This document shows, piece after piece, positions 5,538 to 58,463 of a DNA stretch of 64,000 bases. The first letter of the stretch is position 1. The number at the start of each line of letters is the position of its first letter. Under the pieces are notes generated by a model that was not told where the DNA came from, made no database searches, and saw only the letters and a list, made by a program, of their open reading frames with translations. The stretch comes from Burkholderia metallica (lineage in GTDB: Bacteria > Pseudomonadota > Gammaproteobacteria > Burkholderiales > Burkholderiaceae): NCBI RefSeq assembly GCF_902832845.1, contig NZ_CADFDB010000004.1, positions 186,001 through 250,000 on the forward strand, given 5' to 3'. A program made the position numbers and the translations under genes.

Positions 5538-7340
5538 ATGTCGATGCGTACTGAATACTGCGGTCTCGTGACCGAACACCTGCTGGGCCAAACCGTGTCG
5601 CTGTGCGGCTGGGTGCAGCGCCGCCGCGATCACGGCGGTGTGATCTTCATCGACCTGCGCGATCGTGAAGGCCTCGTGCAAGTGGTGTGCGACCCGGATC
5701 GCGCGGAAATGTTCGCGACCGCCGAAGGCGTGCGCAACGAGTTCTGCGTGCAGATCAAGGGCCTCGTGCGCAACCGTCCGGAAGGCACGGTCAACGCCGG
5801 CCTGAAGAGCGGCAAGATCGAAGTGCTGTGCCACGAACTGAACGTGCTGAACGCGTCGGTCACGCCGCCGTTCCAGCTCGACGACGACAACCTGTCGGAA
5901 ACGACGCGCCTCACGCACCGCGTGCTCGACCTGCGCCGCCCGCAGATGCAGCACAACCTGCGCCTGCGCTACCGCGTCGCGATCGAAGCGCGCAAATACC
6001 TCGACGAGCAGGGCTTCATCGACATCGAAACGCCGATGCTGACGAAGAGCACGCCGGAAGGCGCGCGCGACTACCTCGTGCCGTCGCGCGTGAACGCGGG
6101 CCAGTTCTTCGCGCTGCCGCAGTCGCCGCAGCTGTTCAAGCAGTTGCTGATGGTCGCGAACTTCGACCGTTACTACCAGATCACCAAGTGCTTCCGCGAC
6201 GAAGATCTCCGTGCGGACCGTCAGCCGGAATTCACGCAGATCGACTGCGAGACGTCGTTCCTCGGCGAGCAGGAAATCCGTGACCTGTTCGAAGACATGA
6301 TCCGTCACATCTTCAAGACGACGATCGACGTCGAGCTCGACGCGAAATTCCCGGTGATGCCGTACTCGGAAGCGATGGCGCGTTTCGGTTCGGACAAGCC
6401 GGACCTGCGCGTGCAGCTCGAATTCACCGAGCTGACCGACGCGATGAAGGACGTCGACTTCAAGGTGTTCAGCACGCCGGCCAACGCGAAGGACGGCCGT
6501 GTCGCGGCGCTGCGCGTGCCGAAGGGCGGCGAGCTGTCGCGCGGCGACATCGACGGCTATACCGAATTCGTGCGCATCTACGGTGCGAAGGGCCTCGCAT
6601 GGATCAAGGTCAACGAGAAGGCGAAGGGCCGTGACGGCCTGCAAAGCCCGATCGTCAAGAACCTGCACGACGCATCGATCGCGGCGATCCTCGAGCGCAC
6701 CGGCGCCGAAGACGGCGACATCATCTTCTTCGCGGCCGATCGCGCGAAGGTCGTCAACGACAGCCTCGGCGCGCTGCGCCTGAAGATCGGTCATTCGGAA
6801 TTCGGCAAGGCGAACGGTCTCGTCCAGGCCGGCTGGAAGCCGCTGTGGGTCGTCGACTTCCCGATGTTCGAATACGACGACGAAGATGCGCGCTACGTCG
6901 CGGCGCACCACCCGTTCACGAGCCCGAAGGACGAGCACCTCGAGTACCTCGAGACCGATCCGGGCCGCTGTCTCGCGAAGGCGTACGACATGGTGCTGAA
7001 CGGCTGGGAAATCGGCGGCGGCTCGGTGCGTATCCACCGCGAGGACGTACAGAGCAAGGTGTTCCGCGCGCTGAAGATCGGTGCGGAAGAAGCGCAGCTG
7101 AAGTTCGGCTTCCTGCTGGACGCGCTGCAGTACGGCGCGCCGCCGCACGGCGGTATCGCATTCGGTCTCGACCGCATCGTCACGATGATGGCCGGCGCCG
7201 ATTCGATCCGCGACGTGATCGCGTTCCCGAAGACCCAGCGCGCGCAGGACCTGCTCACGCAGGCGCCGAGCCCGGTCGACGAGCGCCAACTGCGCGAACT
7301 GCACATCCGTCTGCGTCAGCCGGAACAGCCGAAGGCGTAA
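5538..7340 (+). CDS. aspS: Aspartyl-tRNA synthetase, probably non-discriminating (Asp/Asn)
   Basis: A 600-residue class II synthetase, the normal length for bacterial-type AspRS. It has an N-terminal OB anticodon-binding domain (1-105), the catalytic core with motif 2 ([18 protein letters not shown]), the bacterial insertion domain, and motif 3 ([19 protein letters not shown]). Residue H32 in RRRDHGG and G83 in RPEG match the positions that in Pseudomonas aeruginosa mark a non-discriminating enzyme charging both tRNA-Asp and tRNA-Asn. A discriminating enzyme such as that of E. coli has Leu and Lys there. nudB follows, as in many proteobacteria. Confidence 0.97.
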
Positions 7341-7390
7341 CGCGTTTCGTACCCGGTCGTGTGTGCGTTCATGCGCACACGACACACTTG

Positions 7391-7424
7391 AAAAAGGCGC
7401 AGCGATGCGCCTTTTTCGTTTTTT
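7391..7424 (+). terminator. Rho-independent terminator of aspS
   Basis: AAAAAGGCGC (7391-7400) pairs with GCGCCTTTTT (7407-7416) around a 6-base loop, followed by a T-rich tail. A second stem-loop (GTCGTGTG at 7356-7363 with CACACGAC at 7376-7383) lies just upstream, between the aspS stop and the terminator. Confidence 0.88.
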
Positions 7425-7493
7425 GCGGTACAGTCGCAGCACTTGCCGCCCGTTCGGAGCATTTGCCCGGCGCGCGGCCCCGTGCTGCATGAA

Positions 7494-7994
7494 ATGAAGA
7501 TGACGAAGCCGCCGAAAATCCCCGAATCCGTTCTCGTCGTGATCTACACGCCGGACCTCGATGTGCTCGTGATCAAGCGTGCCGACCAGCCCGATTTCTG
7601 GCAATCGGTGACCGGCTCGAAGGACGCGCTCGACGAGCCGCTCGCGCTCACCGCCGCGCGCGAAGTGGTCGAGGAAACCGGCATCGCCGTCGGCACGCCG
7701 GACGTACCGGCCAGCGCGCTCGTCGACTGGCGCCACCGGATCGAATACACGATCTATCCGCAATACCTGCATCGCTATGCACCGGGCGTCACGCGCAACG
7801 TCGAGCACTGGTTCGGCCTGTGCGTGCCGCATCGCGTCGACGTGACGCTGTCGCCGCGCGAACACGTCGACTACGCATGGCTGCCGTTCCGCGAGGCGGC
7901 CGCGCGCTGCTTCTCGCCGTCGAACGCCGAGGCGATCCTGCAGCTGCCCGCGCGCGTCGCCCTGTCGCGCACGCCGCACGGCTCGTCCGCATGA
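7494..7994 (+). CDS. nudB: Dihydroneopterin triphosphate diphosphatase (Nudix)
   Basis: A 166-residue Nudix hydrolase. The box G41-x5-E48-x7-REVVEETGI (R56 to I64) is complete. The early FWQSVTGS and the later EHWFGLCVP are typical of NudB, which removes pyrophosphate from dihydroneopterin triphosphate in folate synthesis. The frame is open upstream; the start at 7494 (or 7500) gives a family-like N-terminus. It follows aspS, as in E. coli, but behind a terminator, so it probably has its own promoter. The stop overlaps the next gene's start by 4 bases (ATGA), indicating translational coupling. Confidence 0.88.
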   Translation: MKMTKPPKIPESVLVVIYTPDLDVLVIKRADQPDFWQSVTGSKDALDEPLALTAAREVVEETGIAVGTPDVPASALVDWRHRIEYTIYPQYLHRYAPGVTRNVEHWFGLCVPHRVDVTLSPREHVDYAWLPFREAAARCFSPSNAEAILQLPARVALSRTPHGSSA

Positions 7995-9265
7995 CGGCGG
8001 AAGCCCGCAAGCGTTTCGCGCAATTGCGGCAGATGTTCCTGCAGGAACGCGGTTCCGCGTCGCGGCTCGCGTTCACGTCGGGCAACACCGTGCGGCTGTG
8101 CGAGACCGGCGGCGAATTCTTCCAGGCGCTGATCGAGCGGATCGACGCAGCTAGCGAGCAGGTGATGCTCGAAACCTACATCTTCTGCGACGACGCGGCC
8201 GGCCGCCCGGTGTCGGACGCGCTGATCCGCGCGGCGCAGCGCGGTGTGCGCGTGCGCGTGATCACCGACGGCATCGGCACCGCGCGCCTGCCGCTGTTCG
8301 ACACGTGGGCCGACGCCGGCGTCGAGCACTGCATCTACAACCGCTTCCTGTTCGGCCGCTTCGGCTTCTCGCGCACGCATCGCAAGCTCGCGGTGATCGA
8401 TCGCGCGGTCGCGTTCTGCGGCGGCATCAACATCGTCGACGACTACGCGCAGAACGGCGCGACGCTGCCGTTTCCGCGCTGGGATTTCGCGGTCGAGATG
8501 GCGGGGCCCGCGGTGTCCGACGTGCGCGCCGCGCTCGAGCTGCAGTGGCACCGGATCATGTTCGGCCACAAGCCGTACGCGCAATACGCGGCCGGGCTGC
8601 AAGGCGGCGAAGCGTTTCCCGAGATGTTCCGGCGCTGGATGCGCAGCCACCGGTGGATCAAGGCCGGCGCGCTCAGGGTCGTGACGGAGCCGAGCGTCGC
8701 GTTCGTCGCGCGCGACAACGTCGTGAACCGTCGCGCGATCGAGAAGGCGTATCTCGCGGCGATCGGCCAGGCGCGCCAGCAGATCCTGCTCGCGAACCCC
8801 TACTTCATGCCGGGGCGCAAGCTGCGCCGCGCGTTGACGGGCGCCGCGCGGCGCGGCGTCGACGTGCGGATCCTGATCGGCCGCAACGAGTTCGCGTCGC
8901 TCGATACGGCCGTGCCGTTCCTCTATCACGCGCTGCTGCGCGCGGGCGTGCGCGTCGCCGAATACGACAAGACGATGCTGCACGGCAAGGTGGCCGTGAT
9001 CGACGACAACTGGGCGACGGTCGGCTCGTCGAACCTGGACGCGCTGAGCCTGATGCTGAACAATGAGGCGAATGTCGTGCTGGTGCGCTACGATGCCGTA
9101 ACGAACGAACTGCGCGATGCGATCACGGCCGCGTTCGCCGACGGTCGGGAAATCGATCCCGCACGATTCGCCGCGCGCCCGCGCATCGAGCGCATGCTGA
9201 ACTGGCTCGCGTATACGGCGTATCGTGTCGTGATGAAGGCGCTGACGGTCGGCGGTTACGACTGA
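7991..9265 (+). CDS. Cardiolipin synthase B-like phospholipase D family protein
   Basis: A 424-residue protein with two HKD motifs of the phospholipase D superfamily: HRKLAVID (H130, K132, D137) and HGKVAVID (H331, K333, D338). Both are followed by the usual Gly/Ser residues (CGGIN, VGSSNLD). It lacks N-terminal membrane segments, so it resembles ClsB rather than ClsA. ClsB-type enzymes make cardiolipin from phosphatidylglycerol (or phosphatidylethanolamine) at the inner membrane. The start at 7991 overlaps the nudB stop; in-frame sequence upstream lies inside nudB. Substrate preference cannot be judged from sequence. Confidence 0.85.
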   Translation: MTAEARKRFAQLRQMFLQERGSASRLAFTSGNTVRLCETGGEFFQALIERIDAASEQVMLETYIFCDDAAGRPVSDALIRAAQRGVRVRVITDGIGTARLPLFDTWADAGVEHCIYNRFLFGRFGFSRTHRKLAVIDRAVAFCGGINIVDDYAQNGATLPFPRWDFAVEMAGPAVSDVRAALELQWHRIMFGHKPYAQYAAGLQGGEAFPEMFRRWMRSHRWIKAGALRVVTEPSVAFVARDNVVNRRAIEKAYLAAIGQARQQILLANPYFMPGRKLRRALTGAARRGVDVRILIGRNEFASLDTAVPFLYHALLRAGVRVAEYDKTMLHGKVAVIDDNWATVGSSNLDALSLMLNNEANVVLVRYDAVTNELRDAITAAFADGREIDPARFAARPRIERMLNWLAYTAYRVVMKALTVGGYD

Positions 9266-49740: not shown

Positions 49741-50427
49741 TCAGGACTGTACGTCGCCGAACTCGCCGCGCATGCCGGCTTCGACGAGTGCCGGCAGTTC
49801 GTCCATCCCGCGCATGATCCGCGTGATGCCCATCGCGCGCAGCGCGTCCGCGTAGTTGTCGGGGATGTGGCTCGCACCGACGAACGCGATCGTCTTCATG
49901 CCCGCCGCGCGCGCCGCATTCAGGCCGGACACGCTGTCCTCGACGACGATGCAGCGCTCCGGCGCGACGCCGAGCGTGCGCGCCGCATGCAGGTAGACGT
50001 CGGGGTAGGGCTTCGGCCGCGCCACCTGCTCGGAGCTGAACACGCGATCGCCGAAGATTTCGGTGAGCGACGCGCGCTTCAGCGAACTGCGCACGCGCGC
50101 GAGCCGGCTGTTCGACACGACGGCCGCCGGCAGCGTGACCTTCAGCAGTGCGTCGCGCACGCCGGTGATCGGCGCGAGCGATTGCGCGAGCGCGCTCTCG
50201 ATGTTGTGCTCGATGGTCTCGATGAAGTTGGCCGGCATCTCGATCCCGAAGCGGGACTCGATGCCCGCCAGGAAGCGCGACGTCTGCTGGCCGAACGCCG
50301 ACTTCGCGGCGGCTTCGAAATCGAGATTCGGGAACGTGGCGGACAGCGTGTCGAGCAGCACGCGGTCGGCGATGACTTCGCTGTCGACGAGCACGCCGTC
50401 GCAGTCGCAGATGAGGTGATCGAGCAT
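49741..50427 (-). CDS. HAD superfamily hydrolase (beta-phosphoglucomutase/YieH-like)
   Basis: A 228-residue HAD-IA phosphatase. Motif I is LICDCDGVLVDSE (nucleophile Asp in DCDG), motif II is AVVSNS, motif III includes the Lys in ARPKPYPDVYL, and motif IV is VVEDSVSGLNAARAAGM. A helical cap (about 20-85) fits phosphosugar phosphatases and mutases such as YieH. The substrate is unknown. It follows the Gfo/Idh/MocA dehydrogenase gene on the same strand by about 190 bp, so it could belong to the sugar/inositol cluster, but the gap suggests its own promoter. Confidence 0.87.
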   Translation of the reverse strand: MLDHLICDCDGVLVDSEVIADRVLLDTLSATFPNLDFEAAAKSAFGQQTSRFLAGIESRFGIEMPANFIETIEHNIESALAQSLAPITGVRDALLKVTLPAAVVSNSRLARVRSSLKRASLTEIFGDRVFSSEQVARPKPYPDVYLHAARTLGVAPERCIVVEDSVSGLNAARAAGMKTIAFVGASHIPDNYADALRAMGITRIMRGMDELPALVEAGMRGEFGDVQS

Positions 50428-50619
50428 GGTGGTGAAAAAGCGGAATGTCGGCGATGCAGATCAATTCGCCATCATACGTGCTTTCACGTGGATGCCGTGC
50501 GACGCTTCGGCAAATTTTCCCGATGCGGCGGCGTGCTTGCTGCGTGTCGCCCGGGCGTGCCGCCGATCGGCCGGCGGCGGCCCGCTTGCGGGGTTCGCCG
50601 CCGCTTGCCGCCGCTCCCG

Positions 50620-51606
50620 CTACAGCTCGATCACGCGCCCCGTTTGCCACGACGTCGTCGCGGCCTCGGCCAGTTCGAGCGCGGCGAGCCCGTCGTCGAT
50701 CGTCGTGCGCACTCGCGTGCCGTCGCGCAGCGCGTCGACGAAGTGCGCGATCTCGGCCGCATACGCATGCCGGTAGCGCTCGAGGAAGAACGGCTCCGGC
50801 ACGTCCGTCGCGATGCCGCCCGCGAGCCATGCGCTCACCTCGGTCGGCCGCACGTTGCCGGCCTGCAGCATGCCGTTGCTGCCGAGCAGCTCGAAGCGCT
50901 GGTCGTAGCCGTAGGCGGCGCGTCGCGACGTGTTGATCTGGCACAGCAAGCCGCGCCGCGTGCGGATGGTCACTGCGGTCGAGTCGATGTCGCCCGCGGC
51001 CAGCACGGCCGGATCGGTCAGGCAGCTGCCGGTCGCGTGCAGCGTCTGCGCTTCGTCGCCGAGGATCCAGCGGAACACGTCGAAGTCGTGGATCAGCATG
51101 TCCTTGAAGATGCCGCCCGAGCTGCGGAGGTAGTCGACGGGCGGCGCGCCCGGGTCGCGGCTCGTGACGACCAGCATTTCCGGCGCGCCGATCTCGCCGC
51201 GCTCGACACGCGCCTTCAGCGCCGCGAACGTCGGGTCGAAGCGGCGCTGGAAGCCGATCATGCACGTCACGCCGCTGCGCCGGACGACCTCCGCGCACGC
51301 ACGCGCGCGCTCGACGCTCAGGTCGACGGGCTTCTCGCAGAACACGGCCTTGCCCGCATTCGCCGCCGCGACGATCAGGTCCGCATGCGTGTCGGTGCTC
51401 GAGGCGATCACCACAGCCTGCACCGACGGGTCGCCGAGCGCGCGCTCGACATCGGCCACCTGCGCGCCGTGCGCGTGCGCCAGCGCGTCGGCCGACGGCG
51501 CATGCCGGTCGACCACATACTTCAGCTTCGCGCCCGGATGGCGCGCGAGATTCGCCGCGTGGATCTTGCCGATCCGGCCCGCGCCGAACAACGCGAATTC
51601 GATCAT
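50620..51606 (-). CDS. Gfo/Idh/MocA family dehydrogenase (inositol 2-dehydrogenase-like)
   Basis: A 328-residue NAD-dependent oxidoreductase. The N-terminal Rossmann motif is FGAGRIGKIHAANLARHPGA, and CEKPVDLS carries the conserved catalytic Lys. GGIFKDMLIHDFDVFRWIL contains the Asp and His that bind the sugar in inositol dehydrogenase (IolG). The length is typical. It is the last of three genes on the minus strand: two TIM-barrel isomerase-like proteins then this dehydrogenase. It probably oxidises an inositol or inosamine-type ring. MocA of the rhizobial rhizopine pathway belongs to the same family. Confidence 0.9.
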   Translation of the reverse strand: MIEFALFGAGRIGKIHAANLARHPGAKLKYVVDRHAPSADALAHAHGAQVADVERALGDPSVQAVVIASSTDTHADLIVAAANAGKAVFCEKPVDLSVERARACAEVVRRSGVTCMIGFQRRFDPTFAALKARVERGEIGAPEMLVVTSRDPGAPPVDYLRSSGGIFKDMLIHDFDVFRWILGDEAQTLHATGSCLTDPAVLAAGDIDSTAVTIRTRRGLLCQINTSRRAAYGYDQRFELLGSNGMLQAGNVRPTEVSAWLAGGIATDVPEPFFLERYRHAYAAEIAHFVDALRDGTRVRTTIDDGLAALELAEAATTSWQTGRVIEL

Positions 51607-51676
51607 TCCGTTCTCCTGTTGATTGTGTGATGTTGCGCCGGCACGCGGCGCGGGTGGCCGCGCACTGTGGCGGCGA

Positions 51677-52504
51677 TCATCGATCTGCCAGTTCGTCGCG
51701 TACGTAGTCGATGCTCGCGCGCAGCCGGTCTTCGATGTCGTCGGCTTCGGCGATTTCGTTCGCGAACGGCTCGAACGAGAGCGCGCCCCGGTAGCCGCGC
51801 GCGAGCAGTTCGCGCAGTTGCCGGATATTGCCGAGCCGGTCGGCGCCGCCGACCAGCACGCGATGGCCGTCGCGCATCCGGTCGACCGGCAGGTCGCCTT
51901 CTTCGACGCCCGAGATGTGCACGAGGCCCGTCAGGTTCGGGAAGAAGATGTCCTCGCCCGACAGGTGATGGTGGAACGTGTCGTGCACGAGCCGGAACAC
52001 CTGTTCGCCCGCGGCGTCGTAGATGCCCTTCACCGCATCGGACTTGCGGCGCAGCGCGCATTCCTCGAAGCCGAGCGGCTCGATGAAGCCGAGCAGGTTG
52101 CGTGCTTCGAGGATCGGCTTCAGCGCCTTCAATGCGCGTACGAGATCGGCATGACGGGCGTCGGCGCTGCGCGTGTCGCCGCGGCTGTTGGTCGGGCACA
52201 GCACGAGCGCACGTGCGCCGCATTGCGCCGCGTAGTCGGCCAGCGCGGTTGCCTCGTCCGCGCGCTCGGCACTCCATTGCTCGAAGCGCTGCAGCGCGTT
52301 GATCGTCAGGATCGTCACGCCGCCGGCTTCGGCCGTCGCGCGCACGGCGGCGGCCGGCGTGCCGTCGGTGATCTCGACGCCGTCGAGATCGTTGCGGATC
52401 TCGATCGTGTCGACACCGAGGCGCCGGCACAGCGCGACGTAACGGTCGAGCGGCAAGCGCGGTGCGCTCATCCGGTTCAGCGAAAAATGAAAGGCCTGCG
52501 TCAT
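51677..52504 (-). CDS. Sugar phosphate isomerase/epimerase, IolI-like TIM barrel
   Basis: A 275-residue xylose-isomerase-like TIM-barrel protein. Likely metal-binding residues lie in GFIEPLGFEEC, LVHDTFHHHLSGED and LVHISGVEEGDLP, and a late Glu in ALSFEPFANEI; this matches IolI/IolH-type inosose isomerases. GAGGAC precedes the ATG at 52504. It lies between the second TIM-barrel gene (38 bp upstream) and the dehydrogenase (70 bp downstream). A ketose or inosose isomerase reaction is inferred from family and neighbours; the exact substrate is not known. Confidence 0.85.
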   Translation of the reverse strand: MTQAFHFSLNRMSAPRLPLDRYVALCRRLGVDTIEIRNDLDGVEITDGTPAAAVRATAEAGGVTILTINALQRFEQWSAERADEATALADYAAQCGARALVLCPTNSRGDTRSADARHADLVRALKALKPILEARNLLGFIEPLGFEECALRRKSDAVKGIYDAAGEQVFRLVHDTFHHHLSGEDIFFPNLTGLVHISGVEEGDLPVDRMRDGHRVLVGGADRLGNIRQLRELLARGYRGALSFEPFANEIAEADDIEDRLRASIDYVRDELADR

Positions 52505-52542
52505 CGTTCTGTCCTCGGGTTTCGAGTGGGGCGGGGGGCGAA

Positions 52543-53577
52543 TCAGGTGCCGGTGTGCGCGACGTCCGCCGCCGGCCCGTTCGCCGGCGCCGTGGCGAGC
52601 GCGTGCCACGTGTCGCGCAGCCAGCGGGCGCACGCGACGTTGTTGTCGAAGATCGAATAGCGTGCGCCGCCGCCGTAGTCGGGAAACGGAATGAACTCGC
52701 AACTGATCTGTTCGAGCCGTGCGGGCCGGGTATGGACCTGCGATTGCAGCAACCGGTGCAGCGCGGCTTTCCACGTGTCGAGTTCCGCCGCATCCCATGC
52801 GCGGTGATAGGTGCCCGGCGCGGGGGCGACGAACGGATACTGGATGCCGCGCCCGGGCCGGCCGTCGGCGCGTCGCATCCACGGGTTGGCCGGATTGTTC
52901 GGCGTCACGCTGCGCGCATGCGCATGCGCGACCCAGCCGCGCGCGATCCAGTCGGCGTAGACGGCGTCGGGAGACGCCGGGTCGAGCATCCGGCGGCCGC
53001 CGTCGGTCGCGTCGTGCAGGCCCGATGCGGCGAGTTCGGCGCGATTGCCGAGCTTGAACAGCAGATGCGAATGATCGAGCGTGATCCGGAACGGCACGCC
53101 GGCCTGTTCGACATGCCGCGCGACGCATGCGACGCGCGCGAAATCCTCGCTCCACATGTCGACGTGCACTTCCAGGCTCGGCAGGCAGCCGGCCGGCTCG
53201 CCGCGCTCGTAGGCACGCAGGTAGAAATCGGCGACCTCGCGGTCGGACAGCGGATGGCCGTCGGCATGATGCGCGTCGAGCTGGCAGTTGAGCACCGTGC
53301 TGCCGAAGCGCGCGCCCGCGGCGACGATCTCGGCGACGTGCGCTTCGTCGCGGCCCGCGCGCCAGATGCCGCCGATTACGCGAATCGGCAGCGCATGGCG
53401 CTCGACCAGCGCGAAATACGGCGACAGGTCCTCGCCGCGCACCGGGTTCTTTTCGACGTAGTCGAACACGCCGGCGCCGGCGACCATGCGGAAGCGTTCG
53501 GCAGGCGCGGGCAACGGCAGGCCGTCGTGTTCGAGCACGCCGTCGAGGTTCACGCCGATGAGGATCGGTTCAGCCAT
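52543..53577 (-). CDS. TIM-barrel (xylose isomerase-like) protein, substrate unknown
   Basis: A 344-residue protein preceded by CAGGAG six bases before ATG 53577. Segments such as VFDYVEKNPVRGEDL, LPSLEVHVDMWSEDF, FRITLDHSHLLFKLGN and CEFIPFPDYGGGARYSI are placed like the metal- and sugar-binding strand ends of an AP endonuclease-2/xylose isomerase-type barrel. I do not recognise a characterised family. It heads the minus-strand set with the IolI-like and dehydrogenase genes. A motif shared with the lacI-mocD gap lies 70 bases upstream of its start, so it is probably the first gene of a LacI-controlled operon. Confidence 0.78.
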   Translation of the reverse strand: MAEPILIGVNLDGVLEHDGLPLPAPAERFRMVAGAGVFDYVEKNPVRGEDLSPYFALVERHALPIRVIGGIWRAGRDEAHVAEIVAAGARFGSTVLNCQLDAHHADGHPLSDREVADFYLRAYERGEPAGCLPSLEVHVDMWSEDFARVACVARHVEQAGVPFRITLDHSHLLFKLGNRAELAASGLHDATDGGRRMLDPASPDAVYADWIARGWVAHAHARSVTPNNPANPWMRRADGRPGRGIQYPFVAPAPGTYHRAWDAAELDTWKAALHRLLQSQVHTRPARLEQISCEFIPFPDYGGGARYSIFDNNVACARWLRDTWHALATAPANGPAADVAHTGT

Positions 53578-53646
53578 CGTCTCCTGTCCGCCGTTGTCAT
53601 GGGAATGGCTGCCCAATGTACGGATGCGCGGCGCGCGCCGCATGAC

Positions 53647-53667
53647 AAACGTTGACGAAAAATCGCC
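53647..53667 (-). promoter_or_regulatory. Candidate LacI-type operator upstream of the TIM-barrel operon
   Basis: Read on the minus strand this 21-bp site contains TTTCGTCAACGTTT preceded by GGCGATT. It matches a site at 54871-54891 in 19 of 21 positions, and both are oriented alike toward the structural genes they precede. The 3' edge is 70 bases from the start at 53577. The core CGT-CA-ACG is a short dyad, as expected for a LacI-family operator. Confidence 0.6.
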
Positions 53668-53745
53668 AATGCGGCGATCGATTTTTTCGCGATGCGCATG
53701 CGGCGCGGCGGACGGTGCTCCGGATGGCGCGCCGGGCGGCGGGAC

Positions 53746-54810
53746 TCAGGCCGGCAGGTAGGCGCTCGTCCTCACGTTGGCCGGACAGAACACGCGGAAT
53801 TCGACCGGGTCGGCCGGCGGCGGCTGCTCCACGATCCCGCACGCATGCAGCACGTGCTGCAGCGCGGAAATTGCCTGGCCGTCCGGGTCCTGGTCGATCG
53901 CGAGATCCATCGCGCCGGCTTCGATGAACGCGCGGTGCTCGTCGAGCATCTCGTGGCCGATCCACACGACGCGGCCGGTCGCGCCGGCCTTGCGCAGCGC
54001 TGCTTCGATGCCGGCCGAGCCGGCGCCGCTGTTGTAGATCGCGACCACGTCGTCGTGCGCCTGCAGCGCCTTCGTCACCGCGCGGTAGCAGCGGTCGTCC
54101 TGGTCGAGCGTCTCGACCGGCGCGTCGTCGCAGCGGACGGCGGCGAACGCGTCGGCGAGCTGGTCGCGGCAGCCGGCCATCCGGTCCGCGTGCGCACGGT
54201 AGCCCATGCGTCCGCCGAGCAGCAGCACGCGCCCCGGGCGTGCCGCGAGGCGGCCGATGTAGTAGCCGGCCGTGCGGCCGGCGCGATAGTTGTCGATGCC
54301 CGCGAAGTGCGCGCGGTCGATGCCGCCGATGTCGGTGACCATCGTGACGACGGTCTCGCCGCGCGCGATCGCGCCGGCCAGCGCGTCGCGCACGCGGGCC
54401 GTGTCGCGCGCGGTGACGATCAGCGCCGCGCGCCGGTACGCGGGCCGTTCGATCAGCGCGGCGGCCCGCTCGTCGTCCGCGGCGGGCAGGATCGTCCGAT
54501 GCACGACCACGCGCCGGTCGAGCATCTGCAGCGAGCGCTGCAGCGCCTGCTGCAGCCGCCGGAAGAACGGTGCGTCGGTGTCCGGCAGCAGCACGTCGAC
54601 GTGGATCAGCCCGTGCCGCGTGTCGGGCAACTGGCGCGGCACGCCGAGCTGCCGCGCGGCCGCGACCACGCGCTCGCGGGCCTGCGCCGATACGCTGCCG
54701 CGCTCGTTCAGCACGCGGTCGACGGTGGTCGTGCTGACCCCGGCGAGCGCCGCGATCTCGTCGAAGCGCGCGGTGCGCTTGCGCCAGCGCGGCCCGGATT
54801 CGCCTGCCAT
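53746..54810 (-). CDS. LacI family transcriptional regulator
   Basis: A 354-residue regulator. The N-terminal headpiece is RFDEIAALAGVSTTTVDRVL followed by NERGSVS, then a periplasmic-binding-protein-like effector domain (about 65-345; LIHVDVLLPDTDAPFFRRLQ, VVTMVTDIGGIDRAHFAGID, RVLLLGGRMGYRAHADRM, YNSGAGSAGI). The headpiece lacks the exact hinge helix of LacI, resembling sugar-specific regulators that bind inositol-like ligands. It lies between the TIM-barrel operon and the divergent mocDEF-like operon, with a shared motif in each adjoining promoter region, so it probably controls both. Confidence 0.9.
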   Translation of the reverse strand: MAGESGPRWRKRTARFDEIAALAGVSTTTVDRVLNERGSVSAQARERVVAAARQLGVPRQLPDTRHGLIHVDVLLPDTDAPFFRRLQQALQRSLQMLDRRVVVHRTILPAADDERAAALIERPAYRRAALIVTARDTARVRDALAGAIARGETVVTMVTDIGGIDRAHFAGIDNYRAGRTAGYYIGRLAARPGRVLLLGGRMGYRAHADRMAGCRDQLADAFAAVRCDDAPVETLDQDDRCYRAVTKALQAHDDVVAIYNSGAGSAGIEAALRKAGATGRVVWIGHEMLDEHRAFIEAGAMDLAIDQDPDGQAISALQHVLHACGIVEQPPPADPVEFRVFCPANVRTSAYLPA

Positions 54811-54870
54811 GGTCGTCTCCTGGAGGATGTCGCCCTCTGCACGGGGCGATGCGACGAACGCTAAAGCGAT

Positions 54871-54891
54871 GGCGAAATTTCGTCAACGTTT
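54871..54891 (+). promoter_or_regulatory. Candidate LacI-type operator in the lacI-mocD divergent gap
   Basis: The 21-bp site contains TTTCGTCAACGTTT preceded by GGCGAAA and matches the site at 53647-53667 (minus strand) in 19 of 21 positions. It lies 92 bases before the desaturase-like gene start and 61 bases from the lacI start, so it could serve both. Confidence 0.6.
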
Positions 54892-54982
54892 CGATTGAGC
54901 GGGGGAGGCCGCGGGCCTAATTTCGAGTCCATGCCGGAGCGCGTGCCGCGCTTCTCACGCAGCCAGAACCAGGGAGACACGA

Positions 54983-56065
54983 GTGGCCTTTACCGACGAC
55001 CAGGCGCACGACCGCACGGCGGCGCGCCGTCACGAATACCGGATGATCGGCGGCGCCGGCGAGCGTGCGCACGCGGCCGGGCTCGTCAACGCCGCGTGGT
55101 ACCGGTGCGCGGTGCCGCGGCCGCTGATGAAGCAGTTGATGCAGCGCGGCGATGCGCGCGCGATCCGCGACACGCTGATCTGGTACGCGGCGATCGCGGC
55201 GAGCGGTGTGCTCGCATGGCTGGCGTGGCATGCGCATTCGGCGTGGGCGATTCCCGCGTTCTTCGTGTACGGCACCCTCTACTGCAGCCCGGCCGATTCG
55301 CGCTGGCACGAATGCGGGCACGGCACCGCGTTCCGCACGCGCTGGATGAACGACGTGCTGTATCAGGTCGCGTCGTTTCAGGTGTTCCGCCGCGCGACCG
55401 CATGGCGCTGGAGCCATGCGCGCCATCACACCGATACGCTGGTCGTCGGGCGCGATCCTGAAATTGCCGCGCCGAAGCCGACCGACTGGCTCTCGCTCGC
55501 GCTGAACGTCGTCGCGCTGAAGCATGTGGCCGGCGAGCTGCGCAAGATGCTTGCGATCGCGTTCACCGGCCGGCTCGACGACGAGGAGCGTACCTACGTG
55601 CCCGAATCGGAACGGCCGAAGGTCGTGCGCGAAGCGCGCATCCATCTCGCGGTGTATGCGGTCGTGGCCGGTGCGTCGCTCTACTGGCGCACGATCCTGC
55701 CACTGCTCTACATCGGGCTGCCGAGCCTCTACGGCGCGTGGCTGTACCTGTATTTCGGCCTGACCCAGCATGCGGGCATGCCCGAGAACGTGCTCGACCA
55801 CCGGCGCAACTGCCGGACCGTGATGATGAATCCCGTGTTCCGCTTCCTGTACTGGAACATGAACTACCACGTCGAGCACCACATGTTCCCGATGGTGCCG
55901 TTCCACGCGCTGCCGAAGCTGCACGAGGCCGTGAAGGCCGACATGCCGCCGCCGTACCGCAGCACGCTGGCCGCGTATGCGGAGATCGTGCCGGCGCTGA
56001 TCCGGCAGACGCGCGACCCGTCCGACTACGTCGTGCGGCCCGTGCCGGATGCCGTGCGCGCCTGA
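54983..56065 (+). CDS. Fatty acid desaturase-family hydroxylase, MocD-like
   Basis: A 360-residue membrane di-iron oxygenase starting at GTG 54983 with AGGGAG upstream. The three histidine boxes are present: HECGHG (H109, H113), HARHH (H145, H148, H149) and HVEHH (H296, H299, H300). Hydrophobic pairs of segments lie at about 63-100 and 222-258. Desaturase/hydroxylase proteins of this type use O2 and a ferredoxin for hydroxylation or desaturation. Here the next two genes supply exactly a Rieske ferredoxin and a ferredoxin reductase. The set matches rhizobial MocD-MocE-MocF of rhizopine breakdown; a demethylating or ring-hydroxylating role is inferred. Confidence 0.85.
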   Translation: MAFTDDQAHDRTAARRHEYRMIGGAGERAHAAGLVNAAWYRCAVPRPLMKQLMQRGDARAIRDTLIWYAAIAASGVLAWLAWHAHSAWAIPAFFVYGTLYCSPADSRWHECGHGTAFRTRWMNDVLYQVASFQVFRRATAWRWSHARHHTDTLVVGRDPEIAAPKPTDWLSLALNVVALKHVAGELRKMLAIAFTGRLDDEERTYVPESERPKVVREARIHLAVYAVVAGASLYWRTILPLLYIGLPSLYGAWLYLYFGLTQHAGMPENVLDHRRNCRTVMMNPVFRFLYWNMNYHVEHHMFPMVPFHALPKLHEAVKADMPPPYRSTLAAYAEIVPALIRQTRDPSDYVVRPVPDAVRA

Positions 56066-56101
56066 CCGACACCGAACCTTCCCACCCAGGAGACACCCAA
56101 C

Positions 56102-56410
56102 ATGACGCAATGGATCGACACCGGCGCGCTCGACGACATCGACGACGAAGACGTCGCGCGCTTCGACCATGCCGGCCGCACGTACGCGATCTACCGCATC
56201 GACGGCGAAGTCTTCGCGAGCGACGGCCTGTGCACGCACGAGCACGTGCATCTCGCGGACGGGCTCGTGATCGACCACGTGATCGAATGTCCGAAGCACA
56301 ACGGGCGCTTCGACGTGCGCGACGGCCGGCCGCTGTCCGCGCCCGCCTGCGAGAAGCTGCGCACGTACCGCGCGAAGATCGAGGGCGGCCGCATTCTGAT
56401 CGAGGTGTGA
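56102..56410 (+). CDS. mocE: MocE-type Rieske [2Fe-2S] ferredoxin
   Basis: A 102-residue Rieske ferredoxin. The cluster ligands are C44-x-H46 (CTHEH) and C63-x2-H66 (CPKHNGRFD), the CxH-x16-CxxH pattern. LCTHEHVHLADGLVIDHVIE closely follows the MocE type. It should pass electrons from the reductase encoded next to the desaturase-like hydroxylase encoded before. Gaps are 36 bp upstream and 4 bp downstream, so the three genes form one operon. AGGAGA precedes the ATG. Confidence 0.88.
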   Translation: MTQWIDTGALDDIDDEDVARFDHAGRTYAIYRIDGEVFASDGLCTHEHVHLADGLVIDHVIECPKHNGRFDVRDGRPLSAPACEKLRTYRAKIEGGRILIEV

Positions 56411-56414
56411 CGCG

Positions 56415-57665
56415 ATGACGAACGACCGGGTGATGGCGATCGTCGGCGCGGGCCATGCGGGCGGCCGCGCGGCGCAGGTGCTGCGCGAATCCGGCTGGGG
56501 CGGGCGGATCGTGCTGATCGGCGCGGAGGCCCACCTGCCGTACGAGCGGCCGCCGTTGTCGAAAGGAGTGCTGACCGGCGAACGCAGCGCCGCGCAGTGC
56601 CGGTTGCGCGAGCCGCACGCGTGGACGGCCGATCGCATCGAGCCGGTCGTCGCGACGGTCGAGTGTATCGATCCGTTCGCACGCGAAGTGCGCGTGTCGG
56701 GTGGGCGCGTGTTCGGCTACGACGCGCTGCTGCTCGCCACCGGTGGCCGCGCGCGTCGCCTCGCGATTCCGGGCGCGACGCTCGACGGCGTCTTTGCGTT
56801 GCGCACGCTCGACGATGCGGCGGTGCTCGGCACGCGGCTCGTGCCCGATACGCGGGTCGTGCTGATCGGCGGCGGCTTCATCGGTCTCGAAGTCGCCGCA
56901 TCGGCGCGCCAACGCGGCTGCCGCGTGACGGTGCTCGACGCGGCCCCGCGCCTGCTCGGGCGCGCGGTGCCGGAAGCGATCGCGGCGCGCGTGCACGCGC
57001 TGCACGAACGGCGGGGCGTGGCCGTTCGCGTGAACCGCAAGCCGGTGGCGATCGAGCGCACGGCGGGCGGCGCGCTGGCCGTCGTGCTCGACGACGGCGA
57101 CACGCTGATCGCCGACACGGTCGTGGCCGGCATCGGCATCGACCCGGCCGACGAACTGGCGCGCGAGGCCGGCCTCGCGGTCGGGCGCGGCATCGTCGTG
57201 AATGCGCGGCTCGAGACGTCGGCGCGCGGCATCTATGCGGCCGGCGACGTCGCGGTGTTCCCGAGCGCGTTGTCGGGGCGACCGGTGCGGCAGGAGACGT
57301 GGCACGGCGCCGAGACCCAGGCGCGCGTCGCCGCGCGCAACATGCTCGGCGCCGACGAGCTGTATTGCGAGATGCCGTGGTTCTGGTCGGATCAATACGA
57401 CGCGCAGTTGCAGGTGGCCGGAGAGCCGGCGCTCGGCGAGCGGTCGGTCGCGCGCGTGTTCGGCGACGATGCGGAAATCCATTTCCATTTCGACGCCGGT
57501 GCGCGGCTCGTCGCCGCGAGCGGCTTCGGCCGCACGTCGGCGTTCGTCAAGGACATGCGCGTGGCGAGAATGCTGGTCGAGCGCGGGATCGACGTGGACC
57601 CGGCGGCCGTGGCGGATACGGACGTGAAGCTGAAGTCGCTGGTCTCGGCCGCGAGCGACCGGTAG
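56415..57665 (+). CDS. FAD-dependent ferredoxin reductase, MocF-like
   Basis: A 416-residue NAD(P)H:ferredoxin reductase of the putidaredoxin-reductase class. The FAD-binding motif is AIVGAGHAGGRAAQVLR near the N-terminus, the NAD(P)H motif VVLIGGGFIGLEVAASARQRG in the middle, and GIYAAGDVAVFPSALSG the second FAD contact; PYERPPLSKGVL is also typical. The C-terminal reductase domain is present. It is the last gene of the three-gene oxygenase operon and supplies electrons to the Rieske ferredoxin. A hairpin follows at 57702. Confidence 0.9.
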   Translation: MTNDRVMAIVGAGHAGGRAAQVLRESGWGGRIVLIGAEAHLPYERPPLSKGVLTGERSAAQCRLREPHAWTADRIEPVVATVECIDPFAREVRVSGGRVFGYDALLLATGGRARRLAIPGATLDGVFALRTLDDAAVLGTRLVPDTRVVLIGGGFIGLEVAASARQRGCRVTVLDAAPRLLGRAVPEAIAARVHALHERRGVAVRVNRKPVAIERTAGGALAVVLDDGDTLIADTVVAGIGIDPADELAREAGLAVGRGIVVNARLETSARGIYAAGDVAVFPSALSGRPVRQETWHGAETQARVAARNMLGADELYCEMPWFWSDQYDAQLQVAGEPALGERSVARVFGDDAEIHFHFDAGARLVAASGFGRTSAFVKDMRVARMLVERGIDVDPAAVADTDVKLKSLVSAASDR

Positions 57666-57701
57666 CGAAAACGAAGCGGCGGGGGAGCGAAGGAAGGAAA
57701 G

Positions 57702-57734
57702 CGAAACGCGCGGCGATGCGTGCCGCGCGTTTCG
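57702..57734. terminator. Terminator hairpin between the mocDEF-like operon and glpF
   Basis: A perfect 13-bp stem joins CGAAACGCGCGGC (57702-57714) and GCCGCGCGTTTCG (57722-57734) around a 7-base loop. On the minus strand it is followed by CTTTCCTTCCTTCG, moderately T-rich, so it probably ends the glp transcript; the plus strand lacks a T run. Confidence 0.7.
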
Positions 57735-57746
57735 GTCAGGCCGCGA

Positions 57747-58463
57747 TCAGATCGTCGCGTGCAGGTGCAGGTACAGGCCGGCTGCCGCGGCGCCGCCGAG
57801 CAGCGGGCCGACGACGGGCACCCATGCATAGCGCCAGTCGCTGTCGCGCTTGCCCGGGATCGGCAGCAGCGCGTGCATGATGCGCGGCGACAGGTCGCGC
57901 GCGGGGCTCATCGCATAGCCGGTCGGGCCGCCGAGCGAGATGCCGATGCCGAGCACGAGCAGGCCGACGGGCAGTGCGTCGAGCGCGCCGAGGCCGACTT
58001 GCGGCGACGCGAGGTACAGCACGCCGAGGATCAGCACGAACGTGCAGATCGCTTCGGTCAGCACGTTGTGCGTGACGCTGCGGATCGCGGGCGCGGTGCA
58101 GAACACCGCGAGCTTCAGGTCCGCGTCGGCTTCCTTCGCGAAGTGCTGGCGATACGCGAGCCACACGAGCAGTGCGCCCGCCATCCCGCCGAGCATTTGC
58201 GCGAGGACGTAGCCGCCGACTTTCGACCACGCGAACTTGCCCGCGAGCGCGAGACTGATGGTGACGATCGGGTTCAGGTGCGCGCCGCTGAACGACGCGG
58301 TCACGTAGACGGCGACGAAGACGGCCATCGCCCAGCCCATCACGATCACGATCAGGTCCGCGCCTTTGCCCTTGGTCTTTGCAAGCAGCACGTTTGCGAC
58401 CGCGCCGTTGCCGAGCAGCACGAGGATCGCGGTGCCGATGAACTCTGCAATATAAGGTGACAT
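57747..58463 (-). CDS. glpF: Glycerol facilitator (MIP/aquaporin family)
   Basis: A 238-residue inner-membrane channel with six helices and two half-helix loops. The first loop motif is HLNPIVT (N64-P65-I66), in place of NPA, and the second is MSPARD (S186-P187-A188), in place of NPA. The conserved arginine (R189) and the following LSPR remain. TAPAIRSVTHNVLTEAICTF matches the GlpF subgroup. Its place after glpK on the same strand supports glycerol uptake. Both pore motifs deviate from the classical sequence; whether this alters selectivity is unknown. Confidence 0.92.
   Translation of the reverse strand: MSPYIAEFIGTAILVLLGNGAVANVLLAKTKGKGADLIVIVMGWAMAVFVAVYVTASFSGAHLNPIVTISLALAGKFAWSKVGGYVLAQMLGGMAGALLVWLAYRQHFAKEADADLKLAVFCTAPAIRSVTHNVLTEAICTFVLILGVLYLASPQVGLGALDALPVGLLVLGIGISLGGPTGYAMSPARDLSPRIMHALLPIPGKRDSDWRYAWVPVVGPLLGGAAAAGLYLHLHATI

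Follow-up and report, generated by a model that had tools for sequence, protein, structure and literature searches.

Introduction

The closest described relative of the system reported here is the rhizobial moc locus (mocCABRDEF) for the degradation of rhizopine (scyllo-inosamine or its 3-O-methyl ether), whose parts are given in PMC10107442 as MocB, MocA, MocR, MocDEF and MocC. Outside the moc literature, the titles and abstract openings that we searched name no genes for the bacterial demethylation of methyl-inositols, one of which, pinitol, makes up the main part of the soluble carbohydrates in a pine (PMC5020614). Here we describe a cluster at positions 50620 to 57665 of a 64,000-nucleotide stretch of Burkholderia metallica DNA (assembly GCF_902832845.1, contig NZ_CADFDB010000004.1, positions 186,001 to 250,000 of the forward strand; the whole stretch is referred to as the window), in which inositol genes and a MocDEF-type oxygenase trio flank a gene for a LacI-family regulator. 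Judging from its gene families, their linkage and a site pattern that the genome has nowhere else, the cluster is probably an entry module under LacI control, in which a methyl-inositol (D-pinitol, D-ononitol or another plant cyclitol of that kind) loses its O-methyl group. It would offer a concrete regulated gene set for methyl-inositol demethylation.

Results

The oxygenase genes are of the MocDEF type

Open reading frames and family scans (Pfam and NCBIfam, nine genes, 49741 to 58463) confirmed that all genes given in a preliminary description of this locus are present, with the LacI gene between two arms. The plus-strand arm encodes a MocD-like membrane diiron oxygenase of the FA_desaturase superfamily (54983-56065; PF00487, over cut-off), a MocE-family Rieske [2Fe-2S] ferredoxin (56102-56410) and a MocF-like, flavin adenine dinucleotide (FAD)-dependent ferredoxin reductase, FdR (56415-57665; PF07992 and PF14759); we refer to the three together as DEF. 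All three His boxes of the desaturase superfamily are present in the MocD-like protein (HECGH-109, HARHH-145 and HVEHH-296). The ferredoxin has a C-x-H...C-x2-H motif at residue 44 and exceeds the TIGR02377 cut-off by a narrow margin (138.2 versus 136.15 bits).

The window DEF proteins were 51, 57 and 45% identical to MocD, MocE and MocF of Sinorhizobium meliloti BL225C (locus L091), bearing out their earlier assignment to the MocDEF type. MocB, MocA, MocR and MocDEF are encoded in this locus and in two others (L148 and L149); MocC is also visible in L091 and L148. A tree of 42 MocD-family rows, rooted only at its midpoint, nested the three moc MocDs with nine others, all from LacI-linked clusters, in an alphaproteobacterial set of 12 rows (support, 100/100). 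The window row fell in a separate betaproteobacterial set (95/96) that also contained two long-branch rows, while the row from locus L122 was placed outside it. This tree took seven of the eight other desaturase-family proteins of the window genome (L152 was dropped because the open reading frame filter gave no frame), and L067 was left out of the alignment owing to an internal stop after coordinate extension.

The window MocD-like protein was 49 to 52% identical to the alphaproteobacterial and moc MocD rows and 31 to 33% identical to desaturases found in the class. Among the seven own-genome desaturase-family proteins, three were 22 to 25% identical over 226 to 300 residues, one matched over 56 residues only, and three gave no match; two of these last (L157 and L158) were placed inside the betaproteobacterial set on a branch 8.7 long, which we take for an artefact. 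A fatty-acid desaturase reading, which the preliminary description had named as the outcome that would count against it, was rejected, since MocD is far closer than the desaturases of the same genome. A PDB sequence search with a MocD-like profile gave no match.

MocD-like proteins are also far commoner than rhizopine regulators. Counted as presence per plasmid record, whatever the neighbouring genes, a MocD-like match covering at least 80% of the query occurred in 264 of 288 records, and MocR at 80% identity or more occurred in 14. Of 60 evenly spread MocD-like rows, 54 were at least 49% identical to the query. From these counts, MocD-like proteins appear mostly to lie outside rhizopine loci, and demethylation of methyl-inositols, if true, would explain why they outnumber those loci.

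Further MocD-like paralogues (~40% identical) were seen in one Burkholderiaceae genome, each with a LacI-like gene (L131, 7411-8418; L132, 6625-7671); together with L147, from a Paraburkholderia plasmid, they make up a second MocD-like subfamily. Pairs of MocD-like and Rieske genes beside a LacI gene occur in L133 (8770-11058) and L135 (8114-9536), neither with an adjoining reductase match; a short-chain dehydrogenase/reductase gene comes next in L133.

The other arm encodes inositol enzymes

The minus-strand arm includes IolG, an inositol 2-dehydrogenase of the Gfo/Idh/MocA superfamily (50620-51606), which scored 414 bits against TIGR04380 (cut-off, 355) and whose best PDB relative is the inositol 2-dehydrogenase 4hkt (E, 8.7e-90). 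Next to it lies TIM2 (51677-52504), a xylose-isomerase-type triosephosphate isomerase (TIM) barrel (PF01261, AP_endonuc_2; 80 bits versus a cut-off of 31) whose profile matched 2q02/4hgx (E, 1.8e-59) and IolI, 1i60 (E, 7.5e-12). We take 2q02 to be Salmonella STM4435 (iolI2). TIM2 is best described as kin of IolI, with putative isomerase activity on keto-inositols. In PMC10783015, iolI2 is listed as uncharacterised. The mocA and mocC kinship proposed earlier did not hold up: IolG was 31% identical to MocA of L091, and neither TIM1, the third gene of this arm, nor TIM2 matched MocC of L091, itself an IolE equivalog, at 1e-5.

Downstream functions were found elsewhere in the genome. Its main iol cluster (contig C9, locus L138) encodes a methylmalonate-semialdehyde dehydrogenase of the IolA type, IolC/aldolase, IolD, IolE, IolB, ATP-binding cassette (ABC) importer genes and a bifunctional myo/D-chiro-inositol dehydrogenase (556 versus a cut-off of 540 bits). 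One copy of FrmA, the glutathione formaldehyde dehydrogenase, scored over cut-off (626.7 bits). D-Pinitol is 3-O-methyl-D-chiro-inositol, and its breakdown would be expected, from Bacillus subtilis biochemistry, to proceed by demethylation, oxidation to keto-chiro-inositol and an IolI-type isomerisation, steps that correspond to DEF, IolG and TIM2. The earlier remark that there is no transporter is true of the window locus itself; some relatives have ABC importer genes within the cluster, and in the window genome such genes belong to the main iol cluster.

Both arms share a genome-unique site pattern

The gene for the LacI-family regulator (53746-54810, minus strand; PF00356 and the sugar-binding domain PF13407, Peripla_BP_4) is transcribed divergently from the MocD-like gene. 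An inverted 14-bp word is common to this divergent promoter and the gap ahead of TIM1, and it sits within a near-palindromic 21-bp pattern, TGGCGAWWTTTCGYCAACGTT. This pattern had exactly two exact matches in the whole 7.55-Mb genome, one per arm: TGGCGATTTTTCGTCAACGTT upstream of TIM1 (53648-53668, minus strand) and TGGCGAAATTTCGTCAACGTT in the gap between LacI and the MocD-like gene (54870-54890, plus strand). Five genome matches were obtained when up to three mismatches were allowed; three of them have three mismatches, one of these overlapping the second site on the opposite strand. The pattern read backwards, as a control, had no match in the genome. Similar sites with slight changes were readable in both gaps of seven related loci. 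Confined in exact form to these two promoters, the pattern is the clearest evidence that the two arms act together; we infer that LacI binds these putative operators.

Gene linkage recurs in Burkholderia and other Burkholderiales

Gene order was kept in the 22 Burkholderia loci of the window's own type (L039 to L060; genes in related loci were called by a simple script), except that L041 ends with its contig before DEF and that matches were short for IolG in L049 (55 residues) and for the reductase in L039 (50 residues). In L049 (10700-11460), from B. ambifaria RZ2MS16, the remainder of IolG is missing or diverged. Nine other Burkholderiales loci (L061 to L068 and L085) contain the same genes in other orders, with TIM1 54 to 58% identical and the MocD-like protein, where present, 56 to 64% identical. 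These loci have further LacI genes, and several also have an RpiR regulator, IolG-type dehydrogenases, an IolC-type kinase and ABC importer genes. The FdR and TIM1 genes overlap by 4 bp in L061, L063, L064 and L068, and in L122 a LacI gene lies opposite a run of MocD-like, Rieske, FdR, TIM1, TIM2, ABC binding protein, ATPase and permease genes. The kept order and the recurrence of the genes in other arrangements indicate that the linkage is more than chance.

In the window, the cluster is flanked by an HAD hydrolase gene (49741-50427) and an MIP-family channel gene (57747-58463). In some related Burkholderia, TIM2 and IolG are separated by a porin-like gene, named by eye (L050, 10959-12137; L055, 11063-12184). 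A complete cluster (LacI, TIM1, TIM2, IolG and DEF) with the gene order retained also lies amid other catabolic genes on a plasmid of B. cenocepacia that was typed as conjugative (L088, NZ_CP091015.1, 22483-43556).

One-carbon genes accompany DEF in most other loci compared

Outside Burkholderia and the TIM1-bearing relatives, we compared 14 DEF loci that were hand-picked (12 from 60 of the 288 plasmid records and 2 from MocR matches) and are not a random sample. A PanB-like gene and/or PurU (formyltetrahydrofolate deformylase) was present in 11 of the 14, as would be expected beside an oxygenase that releases a one-carbon unit; TIM1 was found in none. In Nitratireductor (L139), LacI, TIM2, a MocB-like binding protein, ABC genes, IolG, DEF and PurU lie together, and Marivivens (L140) has LacI, TIM2, a binding protein, ABC genes, IolG, MocD- and MocE-like genes and a PanB-like gene. 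No adjoining reductase match was found in L140 or L147.

PanB-like proteins near DEF include those of L148 (13421-14263) and L087 (11684-12499). The latter exceeded the cut-off for the Pfam model Pantoate_transf (146 bits) and scored 105 to 133 bits against NCBIfam PanB models with cut-offs of 207 to 272, so proteins of its type may form a separate hydroxymethyltransferase-like family.

Published expression data also bear on the substrate. In PMC5789663, Rhizobium mesoamericanum mocDEF homologues rose 1.53- to 2.11-fold with Mimosa root exudate, in which pinitol, at 145 uM, was the most concentrated listed component (inositol, 0.73 uM). Pinitol seems a simpler inducer of these homologues than rhizopine.

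TIM1 is a candidate demethylation partner

TIM1 (52543-53577, minus strand) had been noted as a TIM barrel of no recognised family, and indeed it had no Pfam or NCBIfam match at E of 0.001 or below. AP_endonuc_2 did not match the window protein, and it gave sub-threshold matches in two of four homologues scanned (L069 and L090). A PDB sequence search with a TIM1 profile returned nothing meaningful. The predicted structure has a xylose-isomerase-like TIM barrel fold, nearest to sugar isomerases/epimerases and IolE.

Of 58 loci with a TIM1 homologue (4-kb loci and L088 excluded), 52 have a gene for a Rieske oxygenase, a MocD-like protein or an NdmC-like protein within 6 kb of it, caffeine-type N-demethylase clusters among them. 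NdmA to NdmE were named by similarity and context, with NCBIfam support for FrmA, FrmB and a xanthine permease only and, for strains S31 and S37, with the pertinent text of PMC8055839. The remaining six comprise L041 and L085, where contigs end, L065 and L134, with a ferredoxin reductase only, L089, with a formaldehyde dehydrogenase only, and L127; the stricter claim that TIM1 always adjoins a demethylase is weakened by these. In eight TIM1-bearing genomes without a MocD-like gene, the six examined had a Rieske oxygenase near TIM1 (L123 to L126, L128 and L129), with G339 and G497 outside this set. The text passages of PMC4408171 and PMC8055839 on caffeine-type clusters make no mention of a TIM1-like gene.

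In an alignment of 23 rows from both the cyclitol-type and caffeine-type groups (L065 was left out because of an internal stop after coordinate extension), E136, H138, D140, W142, D168, H171 and R222 were invariant. E136, D168, H220 and E294 lie in or beside strands 132-136, 165-168, 216-221 and 290-293, and may correspond, by analogy, to Glu/Asp/His/Glu metal ligands at the mouth of the barrel. D168 was kept in all rows of this alignment and of a wider set of homologues. Since E136, H220 and E294 vary between groups, TIM1 function may differ between them.

TIM1 is rare overall. A single-protein search found it in 1 of 274 genomes of the class sample, the window's own, and in 32 of 65 in the genus; a profile search found it in 40 of 349 genomes of the family sample at 1e-20, caffeine-type copies counted, and in 3 of 398 of the phylum sample at 1e-10. 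Among 53 plasmid records, those of Acinetobacter (38), Pseudomonas (6) and Klebsiella (4) carry more distant relatives (~32 to 36%), as in L090, an Acinetobacter plasmid where one (6932-8008) lies amid insertion sequence elements by oxygenase genes of the Rieske and 2-oxoglutarate types. A third kind of small TIM-barrel-like protein adjoins MocE-like genes in L061 (8301-9218; barely over the AP_endonuc_2 cut-off) and L130 (7649-8500; no Pfam match).

Discussion

Entry of a methyl-inositol into the inositol pathway is the reading favored by the kinship of DEF with MocDEF, the IolG equivalog, the IolI-like TIM2, the linkage in L139, L140 and L122, the one-carbon genes, the context of TIM1, the two-site pattern, the iol and FrmA genes and the expression data of PMC5789663. 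In the pathway that we propose, LacI would repress both arms through the common operator until an inositol-type effector arrives. The FAD reductase would take electrons from reduced nicotinamide adenine dinucleotide (NADH), and the Rieske ferredoxin would hand them on to the membrane diiron protein; hydroxylation of the O-methyl group by this protein would give a hemiacetal that breaks down to formaldehyde and free inositol. IolG would oxidize the inositol to a keto-inositol, TIM2 would shift the keto group to give an isomer accepted by IolE, and the remaining steps would fall to the main iol pathway, encoded elsewhere in the genome. TIM1 would be a partner in demethylation, its most likely substrate being the one-carbon product or a hydroxymethyl intermediate.

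A number of observations weigh against this proposal. IolG and TIM2 alone are also compatible with plain inositol isomers, and O-demethylation by MocDEF is reportedly itself a proposal, part of a moc model from Bahar in 1998. The window cluster contains no one-carbon gene; among the 14 DEF loci outside the TIM1-bearing group, L145, L146 and L147 have neither a PanB-like gene nor PurU, only seven have TIM2, and the LacI proteins of the alphaproteobacterial clusters are only 26 to 29% identical to that of the window. The TIM1 link is also imperfect: a MocD-like gene was found in only 6 of 14 TIM1-bearing genomes tested, and L127 has TIM1, TIM2, ABC genes and IolG with no DEF alongside. The TIM1 of L127 is without most of the putative metal-site residues, in a single alignment where misalignment is possible, and its genome (G531) has three MocD-like genes elsewhere. 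Against a common one-carbon role of TIM1 in both groups, all 11 caffeine-type sequences of the 23-row alignment have Gln for H220 and Asp for E294; among the 12 homologues of the wider set, six have Asn or Tyr for D140, L127 has Ser there, and L134 has Ala for E136. Finally, the authors of PMC5789663 interpret the rise of these rhizobial homologues as rhizopine catabolism.

Rhizopine degradation, as by the moc locus, would account for the kinship of DEF with MocDEF and for the cyclitol dehydrogenase alongside. However, the scans found no MocR (the pyridoxal phosphate-type regulator), MocB, MocC-like gene or aminotransferase among the nine genes, the dehydrogenase is an IolG equivalog with low identity to MocA, and MocD-like proteins greatly outnumber MocR in plasmid records. 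A rhizopine substrate is therefore quite improbable, and we rejected it as the principal explanation given the lack of MocR and MocB, an IolG that is not MocA and a TIM2 that is not MocC. The absence of a mocB-like gene had been noted correctly before; of the "methylated or aminated inositol" then suggested, the methylated, non-amino form is the better reading in this cyclitol context, and the aminated form finds no counterpart among the nine genes scanned. Another oxidation by the diiron protein (ring hydroxylation, desaturation, or lipid or glycoside oxidation) is suggested by the breadth of the FA_desaturase superfamily and by weak NCBIfam matches to arginine hydroxylase and desaturases, all far under cut-off. 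We consider it unlikely, since the protein is far nearer MocD than the desaturases of its own genome, one-carbon genes recur by DEF-type trios and demethylase-type genes recur by TIM1.

The two arms might also be unrelated and simply happen to lie on either side of a regulator gene, as their separation in genome G531 (L127 versus L130 to L132) and the MocD-like and Rieske pairs of L133 and L135, with no TIM1 nearby, would allow. With the 21-bp pattern exact in both promoters only, the 4-bp FdR/TIM1 overlap in four loci and the single run in L122, this is very improbable. The role of TIM1 is less settled. That it is a second keto-inositol isomerase or a dehydratase, with caffeine-cluster kin in unrelated roles, has somewhat less than an even chance of being correct: its predicted structure is nearest to sugar isomerases/epimerases and IolE, and its putative metal-site residues (H220, E294, D140 and E136) vary among homologues. 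Against this stand the seven residues invariant across both groups, and we know of no sugar involved in caffeine demethylation. Cyclitol and purine pathways share TIM1 with no obvious common substrate but the products of demethylation, and in the alphaproteobacterial loci compared PanB-like or PurU genes occur where TIM1 is missing, which argues for a role on a one-carbon or hydroxymethyl intermediate. We regard such a role and that of a second inosose isomerase as about equally likely for this candidate demethylation partner.

The methyl-inositol proposal can be extended, more speculatively. TIM1 could found a family acting on what all oxidative demethylations yield (formaldehyde or an O- or N-hydroxymethyl intermediate), recruited beside unrelated demethylases such as MocDEF-type diiron systems, NdmA/VanA-type Rieske oxygenases and NdmCDE complexes. 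On this view the cluster would form an entire, undescribed methyl-inositol regulon, with rhizobial rhizopine catabolism as a later offshoot of LacI-linked modules of this type. We offer this wider scheme only tentatively and think it rather more apt to be wrong than right. The cluster also draws attention to an unnamed enzyme family, shared with clusters for caffeine-type demethylation, that might catalyze a missing one-carbon step.

Compared with the moc loci of S. meliloti and R. leguminosarum (L091, L148 and L149), the window cluster has a MocDEF-type trio in the same order, a link to inositol breakdown and a Gfo/Idh/MocA-superfamily dehydrogenase. It differs in having LacI rather than MocR, IolG rather than MocA and the IolI-like TIM2 rather than an IolE-type MocC, in lacking MocB and PanB-like or PurU genes, and in possessing TIM1. 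The LacI-linked alphaproteobacterial DEF clusters (such as those of R. ruizarguesonis pRL11, Nitratireductor and Marivivens), whose genes are annotated as desaturase, MocE family ferredoxin and TIM barrel, resemble it in their LacI and MocD/MocE-like genes, in TIM2 for half of the DEF loci, and in the IolG and ABC importer genes of L139 and L140. Unlike the window, they have a distant LacI, PanB-like and/or PurU genes in most cases, and no TIM1. Caffeine and methylxanthine clusters (ndmABCDE-frmAB) share a TIM1 homologue (32 to 41% identical) adjoining demethylase genes, but these encode Rieske N-demethylases rather than DEF and act on a purine rather than a cyclitol, and H220Q and E294D mark the 32 to 35% group. 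Finally, canonical iol clusters (IolA to IolE, IolG and IolI) share the IolG equivalog and the IolI-like TIM2, whereas the window locus lacks IolB to IolE, which this genome carries on contig C9, and adds DEF and TIM1. The parts of the cluster are ordinary, but their combination is new: it appears to be a methyl-inositol demethylation regulon outside the rhizobia, with an unnamed family that links it to caffeine-type demethylation.

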